NCBI GenBank assembly: GCA_902775025.1
Contig: CACYKP010000001.1
Span: 1-64,000, forward strand
From: an uncultured bacterium
GTDB lineage: Bacteria; Cyanobacteriota; Vampirovibrionia; Gastranaerophilales; Gastranaerophilaceae
Reading direction: 5' to 3'
Length of the DNA: 64,000 nucleotides
Part shown: in pieces, positions 28,410 through 29,077 of the stretch
Layout: the number at the start of each line of letters is the position of its first letter
How positions within the stretch are numbered: position 1 is the stretch's first letter
Translations under genes and position numbers: made by a program
The notes under the pieces: model-generated
The model's database searches: none
What the model saw: only the letters and a program-made list of their open reading frames with translations
What the model was told of the DNA's origin: nothing

Positions 28410-28429
28410 TAAATAATAAATTAAGATTA

Positions 28430-28504
28430 AACCGTTTAGGATTTTGTGAGAGGTGTATAACAACACATCACAAAAGTGATGGTGGATGCTCATTTCACTC
28501 ACAA
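28430..28504. other. Structured non-coding segment with a degenerate repeat copy
   Basis: Bases 28430-28453 match bases 28904-28927 of the second tandem repeat at 22 of 24 positions. Directly after, TTGTGAG (28444-28450) can pair with CTCACAA (28498-28504), enclosing a perfect hairpin CATCAC/GTGATG (28466-28471 with 28476-28481). It begins 20 nt after the stop of the exported-protein gene. There is no coding frame. It could be part of that gene's 3' end or a separate RNA. Confidence 0.4.
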
Positions 28505-28701: not shown

Positions 28702-28734
28702 AAAATAGCCTATGGCAAGATCCAAGGCTATTTT
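28702..28734 (-). terminator. Terminator-like hairpin next to the tandem repeats
   Basis: A perfect 10-bp stem (28702-28711 with 28725-28734) is followed on the minus strand by ATTTTG. It occupies the same position relative to a GGCGGT motif as the two other hairpins of the array, so it marks the end of the series of hairpins downstream of tRNA-Glu. Confidence 0.55.
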
Positions 28735-28738
28735 TAAC

Positions 28739-28873
28739 GGCGGTCAGGACTGTGCCGAGAGAAAGGTGACTAAATGTCACGTTTCTCGAGAGGGGCAGAA
28801 CCCCAATGACGTAAGTTATTGCGGGTTCAATTCTCAAAAACAAAAAAGCCCTCAAAGGAGGACTTTTATTGGC
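28739..28873. repeat. Tandem structured repeat, unit 1
   Basis: The unit is about 135 nt. In plus-strand order it contains GGCGGTCAGGACT, a variable hairpin (28759-28787: GAGAAA-G-GTGAC against GTCAC-G-TTTCTC), GAGAGGGGC, a short GGGG/CCCC hairpin, a constant segment up to GGGTTCAATTCTC, and the hairpin AAGCCCTC/GAGGACTT (28846-28853 with 28858-28865), which reads as a terminator on the minus strand. It is nearly identical to unit 2 except in the variable hairpin. No coding frame is credible. Confidence 0.75.
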
Positions 28874-29006
28874 GGCGGTAAGGACTCTGCCGAAGAAAAT
28901 CCGAACCGTTGAGGATTTTCTGAGAGGGGCGAACCCCAATGACGTAAGTTATTGCGGGTTCAATTCCCAAAAACAAAAAAGCCCTCAAAAGAGGACTTAA
29001 ATTGGC
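28874..29006. repeat. Tandem structured repeat, unit 2, abutting tRNA-Glu
   Basis: The unit is about 133 nt with the same order as unit 1. Its variable hairpin is 28894-28902 paired with 28913-28921 (9 bp). The stem is kept in both units while its bases and loop are different, which is what selection for RNA or DNA structure looks like. The next GGCGGTAAGG would open a third unit, but this is the reverse complement of the tRNA-Glu 3' end, so the array runs directly into the tRNA gene. Confidence 0.75.
28979..28998 (-). terminator. Terminator of tRNA-Glu
   Basis: On the minus strand AAGTCCTC and GAGGGCTT pair (8 bp including one G-U) around a 4-nt loop, followed by T6-G-T5. It lies 4 nt past the CCA end of the tRNA. 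Confidence 0.8.
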
Positions 29007-29077
29007 GGCGGTAAGGGGAATTGAACCCCTGTTTGGAGAATGAGAATCTCCCGTCCTAACCACTAGACGATACCGCT
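29003..29077 (-). tRNA. tRNA-Glu (anticodon CUC)
   Basis: On the minus strand the gene gives a 75-nt tRNA with encoded CCA. The D-arm region ATCGTCTAGTGGTTAGGAC is typical of tRNA-Glu. The anticodon stem GGAGA/TCTCC closes the 7-nt loop TTCTCAT with anticodon CTC. The T-arm is AGGGG-TTCAATT-CCCCT, and the discriminator base is G. The acceptor stem has six good pairs, but position 1 is A against C72, an unusual mismatch. A promoter lies upstream and a terminator follows. Confidence 0.93.

Follow-up and report, generated by a model that had tools for sequence, protein, structure and literature searches.

What are the two nearly identical units that lie beside a tRNA-Glu gene in an uncultured bacterium of the Gastranaerophilales (assembly GCA_902775025.1, contig CACYKP010000001.1)? 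They were noticed in the first 64,000 nucleotides (nt) of this contig, the whole stretch that was analysed and that is referred to here as the window. The original prediction, made from the sequence alone, described them as tandem units that keep a stem while changing its sequence, and offered three explanations: small RNAs read behind the tRNA, a nested set of attachment-site scars or a mobile structured repeat. We conclude that both units probably belong to a family of very small mobile DNA hairpins that has RNA genes as its targets and is confined, in our sample, to the Gastranaerophilales.

A family of covarying hairpin cores

The predicted extent of the array, positions 28739-29006, is exact to the base. 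Outside the hairpin the two units are about 94% identical (78/83 columns), while inside it merely 18 of 32 columns align. The stems keep 11 and 9 base pairs, as had been counted, the first with a G-G mismatch. The element is longer than its hairpin, as the prediction had missed: it includes 10 nt on the 5' side (ACTSTGCCGA) and 5 nt on the 3' side (GAGAG). The core of the family is thus ACTCTGCCGA, a variable hairpin and GAGAG, 38-46 nt in all with nearly fixed ends, and in nearly all copies the hairpin stands on the feet GCCGA (5') and GAGAG (3').

The prediction could be tested by looking for further copies, and these were found both in the same genome and in related ones. A search of the genome with both units gave short matches at tRNA-Lys, tRNA-Val, tRNA-Pro and tRNA-Leu loci and elsewhere, all of which share the core. 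The pattern CTSTGCCNN{18,48}GAGNGG has 20 matches in this genome, several of them double-counted and one spurious, and its reversed control has none. The core is present in 136 of 146 sampled Gastranaerophilales genomes (1,396 matches, with a median of 6 and a maximum of 86 per genome), and the reversed pattern matches in none of the 146. In a sample of 386 genomes from the phylum the core is confined to this family and one genome of a sister family, the scattered matches in the other genomes occurring at about the control rate. A covariance model recovers 19 copies in the genome of the window, five in the sister family and four in genome G045, which the exact pattern had missed; it finds no copies in 14 other genomes, among them four family members without the core (G008, G046, G032 and G073). 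Among named records, those with the motif are nearly all from Candidatus Gastranaerophilales or from unnamed bins, mostly of gut origin. One record titled Muribaculaceae (L104, JAMPCZ010000013.1) also has the motif and is probably a misassigned contig.

Covariation-like evidence of a conserved structure had been read from the two units, and across the family the covariation is strong. Among 40 distinct cores of 45 nt the proposed stem is paired in 90% of cells; 104 double-sided changes compare with 30 in shuffles, and a covariation score of 0.38 with one of 0.10, a signal that is lost when the partner is slid by one base. Loops recur as types, including GACTAAATGTC, GATTAAGTATC, CCGAACCGTTGAGG and CCAGTG. 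Folded as DNA and compared with shuffles, the window cores have z-scores of -4.8 and -3.1; for the whole units folded as RNA these are -5.2 and -4.9. The covariation confirms a conserved fold, which is equally expected of a hairpin in RNA or in DNA.

The impression that the units fit no familiar RNA family also held. In Rfam 15 no match exceeded the gathering score apart from the tRNA matches in the window, the rest being weak and below threshold, and a search for a family identity at relaxed thresholds gave no credible match. No description of such elements was found in the part of the literature on Gastranaerophilales that was covered, and the core is apparently a member of an undescribed family.

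Target sites and what insertion leaves

Of 254 distinct copies at the loci examined, 151 lie within 500 bases of a tRNA gene. The tRNA is downstream in the reading direction of the core for 139 of these (113 sense, 26 antisense), the sense copies being in the D-arm and the antisense copies in the T-arm. Many of the remaining copies are at contig ends, where arrays break assemblies, and dispersed copies are also found away from tRNAs. Sites other than tRNAs include an antisense 5S rRNA gene (L038), an antisense tmRNA gene (L098, recognised in the sequence by eye) and palindromic repeats (L169, L072, L066). The array units at tRNAs of the sister family occupy the same kinds of sites; one of these arrays, at a tRNA-Met (L440 1502-1990, genome G286), has units of 242 nt with an extra insert after the core. 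Larger palindromic repeats in genomes G047, G098 and G104 (L058-L087), for example those with TGTCCGAGAAAGACTCGCG and GTCTGAGTGGGACCTCGCTTG, contain the core at one or two fixed places and may have spread it.

Insertion points were located from alignments of the sequence left of each core with the intact tRNA. In the sense orientation they fall after tRNA base 11-12 or 17-20, in the D-arm, with further points at 6-8 in tRNA-Pro and initiator tRNA-Met and at 26 in tRNA-Ile; in the antisense orientation they fall at 10-14, at the edge of the T-arm. A given tRNA species is entered at different positions in different genomes. The site list, 35 entries compiled by hand, combines the tRNA alignments with the 5S rRNA, the tmRNA and one repeat. 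In the intact copy the five bases that lie 3' of the insertion point read GNARY, with G at the first position in 35/35, A at the third in 34/35 and C or T at the fifth in 33/35.

This GNARY rule predicts which tRNAs are targeted. In the genome of the window, sense arrays stand at 9 of the 11 tRNAs whose D-arm contains [AG]G[CT]^GNARY, where ^ marks the insertion point, and at none of the 35 others (p = 5e-8), the cores in the tRNA cluster of contig C13 having been assigned by hand. For a tenth tRNA with the motif, tRNA-Pro(CGG), the cores lie in a broken copy beside the gene. In genome G077 the strict motif gives arrays at 6/9 tRNAs against 1/32 others (p = 1.2e-4), and the exception is a tRNA-Val that was entered at a second D-loop site, GTAGC. 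As a separate observation, two cores within a broken tRNA-Pro(CGG) copy (L091 6026-7220, G000 C23) flank an interval of about 1.1 kilobases (kb) that encodes a Gp49-like (HigB-type) toxin and a probable partner gene, and this broken copy also has a separate repeat of about 100 nt in its T-loop.

Empty and filled sites can be compared directly. A palindromic repeat has, on the same contig, an empty copy GAGC-GTTAGC-GAAGAATCTC and a filled copy GAGC[core]GGCGAAGAATCTC; for the 5S rRNA gene the empty sequence is GGATGGGAACGGGTGG and the filled one GGATG[core]GGGGTGG; and for the repeat of G047 they are GTGGCGTATTAGACAGC and GTGGC[core]GTAGACAGC. Filled sites are without about five target bases, the replacement usually being G, GTA, GAA or GTAA. 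Where the target is an RNA gene, its filled copy is cut short, and a copied flank and then the intact gene come after it. Array units range from roughly 84 to 240 nt, and tandem units within one array are near identical. The tRNA sequence resumes directly after the core, with a match of at least 8 nt, in 56 of 99 units where about one is expected, and 31 of the 99, against about 0.3 expected, have an inverted copy, 9 nt or longer, with the lost piece in it. A motif close to TTGAAAANTNAATA precedes many tRNA genes (for example at L005, L092 and L199) and is copied in array units. At a tRNA-Arg(ACG) gene (L402, G000 C24) the tRNA 3' end and terminator occur twice, on either side of an insert in which no core can be recognised; this insert may be a different element that uses the same kind of event.

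The units beside tRNA-Glu

The target gene in the window is an intact tRNA-Glu(CTC) on the minus strand at 29003-29077. The units lie at its 3' end, so what opens a unit on the plus strand is the tRNA 3' end in reverse complement; the GGCGGT that opens each unit is copied tRNA-Glu sequence, and the start of a putative third unit is the 3' end of tRNA-Glu itself in reverse complement, as had been proposed. Direct reading of the sequence gives a hairpin with the stem ATAGCC..GGCTAT at 28702-28738 on the minus strand, which probably served tRNA-Glu as its original terminator and now lies apart from the gene, behind both units.

Sequence comparison places the copied tRNA-Glu edge of unit 1, GGCGGTCAGG, at 28739-28748 on the plus strand. 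The core follows at 28749-28792 (plus strand) and consists of ACTGTGCCGA (28749-28758), a hairpin with the loop type GACTAAATGTC (28759-28787) and GAGAG (28788-28792). The remainder of the unit, at 28793-28835 on the plus strand, contains the T-arm-like sequence GGGCAGAACCCC, a second hairpin and an inverted T-arm copy, GGGTTCAATTCTC. Unit 2 repeats this order on the same strand: the copied edge GGCGGTAAGG is at 28874-28883 and the core at 28884-28926, made up of ACTCTGCCGA (28884-28893), a hairpin with the loop type CCGAACCGTTGAGG (28894-28921) and GAGAG (28922-28926). This second core has relatives at other tRNA loci of the genome. Its remainder (28927-28968) comprises GGGCGAACCCC, a second hairpin at 28937-28954 and the inverted T-arm copy GGGTTCAATTCCC at 28956-28968, a 13-nt exact inverted match to tRNA-Glu that includes the replaced piece. 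The terminator-like hairpin predicted for each unit on the minus strand lies at 28867-28844 in unit 1 and at 28998-28979, now directly behind tRNA-Glu, in unit 2.

The covariance model (R1) matches the two cores with E-values of 1.6e-13 and 4.7e-13, the window copies or near copies having been among the sequences from which it was built, and has no other match in the window below E 0.1. A decayed third core suggested by eye at 28425-28455 is unsupported, with no model match at E up to 10.

In three species of the genus the tRNA-Glu arrays have a common, diverged unit backbone and different core hairpins; the comparison is thin, because tRNA-Glu accompanies the acyltransferase gene at just 3 of 30 loci of the genus. 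The shared backbone with differing hairpins indicates that units can be old while the inner hairpin changes, and this change can come about by new insertions or by conversion between copies.

Probable mobile hairpins and other explanations

The family and its covariation, the many independent sites that follow a target rule, the empty and filled sites and the anatomy of the units are best read as the work of a mobile hairpin, which they fit better than small RNAs or attachment-site scars. In the mechanism that we propose, the core would enter just 5' of a GNARY, whether in an arm of a tRNA gene, of 5S rRNA, of tmRNA or of a palindromic repeat, and the filled copy would lack that pentamer. At RNA genes insertion would be coupled to a tandem duplication in which the outer gene edge and its flank are copied; the core would occupy the former place of GNARY, an inverted copy of the lost piece would often come next, and the complete gene would then stand. 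Repeated events would build arrays, and at tRNA-Glu two antisense units, each with a terminator of its own, would have been added to the 3' end. The core may move as folded single-stranded DNA. The lost pentamer, duplicated edge and inverted copy resemble fold-back synthesis, and the duplication and inverted copy may accordingly stem from fold-back (template-switch) repair or replication. Selection would also be needed, since an insertion that disrupts an essential tRNA would be lost unless a spare copy is present. It is possible, if on balance doubtful, that this is a previously undescribed mode of transposition, in which a folded hairpin of 40 nt replaces GNARY, copies the gene edge and a fold-back piece and keeps the essential gene; if so, saturation of the targets by such an element need not kill the host.

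Two variants of the mechanism were set aside. Insertion at the RNA level into the tRNA is unlikely because the core occurs in both polarities relative to the tRNA, and replacement of a loop fits the palindromic repeat and fails as a general rule at D-stem and T-stem sites. A scan of IMG/VR with a loose pattern, which bears on a viral origin, gave 105 stretches, possibly by chance.

Several points count against a mobile hairpin. With genomes compared at one per species, no donor-recipient pair was caught in the act, and the case for mobility is drawn from the dispersal of the copies, their nesting within other repeats and polymorphism at the sites. In G047 and G098 many of the dispersed copies are part of larger repeats, which may have carried them along. 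No enzyme dedicated to the core came to light, and some of the arrays at tRNA-Glu, given their shared diverged backbone, are old and could be retained for a function.

A special case of this reading, which names the enzyme, would make the core a mobile hairpin that resembles repetitive extragenic palindromic (REP) elements, moved on folded single-stranded DNA by a REP-associated tyrosine transposase (RAYT), a Y1 HUH enzyme; we think this unlikely, if worth keeping in view. Such elements would be expected to have a single hairpin, a sequence-specific target and no classical target-site duplication, as is the case here, and RAYT-like genes are present in 50 of the 146 family genomes, which have a median of 9.5 copies against 4.5 in the others (p = 1.7e-4, uncorrected for kinship). 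The core is followed on its 3' side by GTAG or GTAA in 91/255 copies, but by GTAG directly after GAGAG in just 61/255, and the unpaired GTAG/CGTC tag that is the hallmark of REPs (PMC3733652) is absent from the 5' foot of the hairpin. Furthermore, 12 genomes with 15-43 copies have no RAYT match, the RAYTs of the genome of the window are not flanked by the core, and the core occurs in just 3 of 20 RAYT regions fetched. Y1/RAYT transposases are only weakly associated with the core, and RAYT as the sole mover was rejected on the copy-rich genomes without one and the RAYTs without a nearby core. A reverse transcriptase was likewise rejected, as none was found in the genome of the window and copy number is not clearly associated with such genes (median 8 against 5, p = 0.10). 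Two stand-alone Y1 (RAYT-like) transposase genes of the genome of the window lie at L339 1126-1650 and L340 1223-1765 (G000 C6), with no core nearby.

Nested attachment-site scars, left by mini integrative elements of the tyrosine-recombinase type that each restore the gene edge and bring a leader or terminator, would account for the tRNA context: units stand at tRNA ends, a gene-edge copy of 6-20 nt with its flank adjoins an intact gene, and the presumed original terminator of the window has been displaced to 28702-28738. They leave unexplained the identical type of core inside 5S rRNA, tmRNA and palindromic repeats and the loss of about five target bases from filled sites. The identity block varies with the target whereas the core and the GNARY rule are constant, and no recombinase gene is present in the few intervals of 1-2 kb between cores that were examined; we regard scars as improbable. 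RNAs transcribed together with the tRNA, either a family of structured small RNAs or tRNA-linked regulators, would show the strong covariation, sense arrays would be transcribed as tRNA leaders, and the conserved asymmetric loop TGCCGA/GA may recall an RNA kink. A DNA hairpin would covary equally, however, and the core stands in either orientation to transcription (sense at the D-arm, antisense at the T-arm), is dispersed away from tRNAs and, in the window, is separated from tRNA-Glu by a terminator-like hairpin. This option of the original prediction is unsupported, and we consider it very improbable. An account without any mobility, in which tRNA genes underwent local tandem duplication and slippage and the core was handed down from an ancestral array, would fit the near-identical tandem units and the tRNA-Glu backbones common to several species. 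It deserves hardly any credence in view of a sharp-ended core in unrelated tRNAs, 5S, tmRNA and repeats and at differing positions of one tRNA, and slippage would not produce the target rule.

Comparable systems are known elsewhere. As a DNA hairpin whose short target is on one strand, the core recalls IS200/IS605 and REP systems, where an HUH enzyme cuts and joins folded single-stranded DNA (PMC8266576). REP/REPIN elements with their RAYTs are likewise short, dispersed, single hairpins of bacteria with stem variants, thought to be moved in this way (PMC3733652, PMC3116915, PMC8266576); the core differs in having no GTAG/CGTC foot tag, conserved ends on both sides, ^GNARY sites in RNA-gene arms, tandem gene-sparing units and many copy-rich hosts without a RAYT. 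GC clusters and double-hairpin elements of mitochondria are also mobile hairpins of about 40 nt with constrained stems and nested or merged clusters (PMC4478555; Paquin and colleagues 2000, cited there). These are organelle elements, with the target AG in the case of GC42, and gene-sparing tandem tRNA units are not described for them in the parts of PMC4478555 consulted. The ends of IS200/IS605 elements and their non-autonomous derivatives share with the core insertion beside a fixed short target (here ^GNARY, at 35 sites) and a hairpin near the end. They insert simply, without loss or duplication of the target, whereas the core loses its target in the filled copy, its unit is duplicated with an inverted copy, and no autonomous parent was seen. 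In the sister group, the small dispersed repeats of cyanobacteria, which Elhai and colleagues are said to have described in 2008, are also very small mobile repeats; they are reportedly 21-27 nt long and without a tRNA-arm rule, and in the sampled Cyanobacteria the core pattern and model gave nothing above control. The core works like the smallest known mobile hairpins and falls outside both the tagged REPs and the simple IS200/IS605 elements; the target rule and the gene-sparing arrays are the new parts of the family.

Among mobile DNA families whose target rule is clear, that of the core would be one of the smallest, and it is in most sampled genomes of a gut-bacterial lineage. Its target rule, replaced pentamer and inverted copies are direct and testable footprints of a 40-base hairpin copying into new sites. 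For annotation, it leaves truncated tRNA copies and tandem repeats where assemblies break, and for its hosts it is a family that makes essential tRNA genes its home yet spares them.
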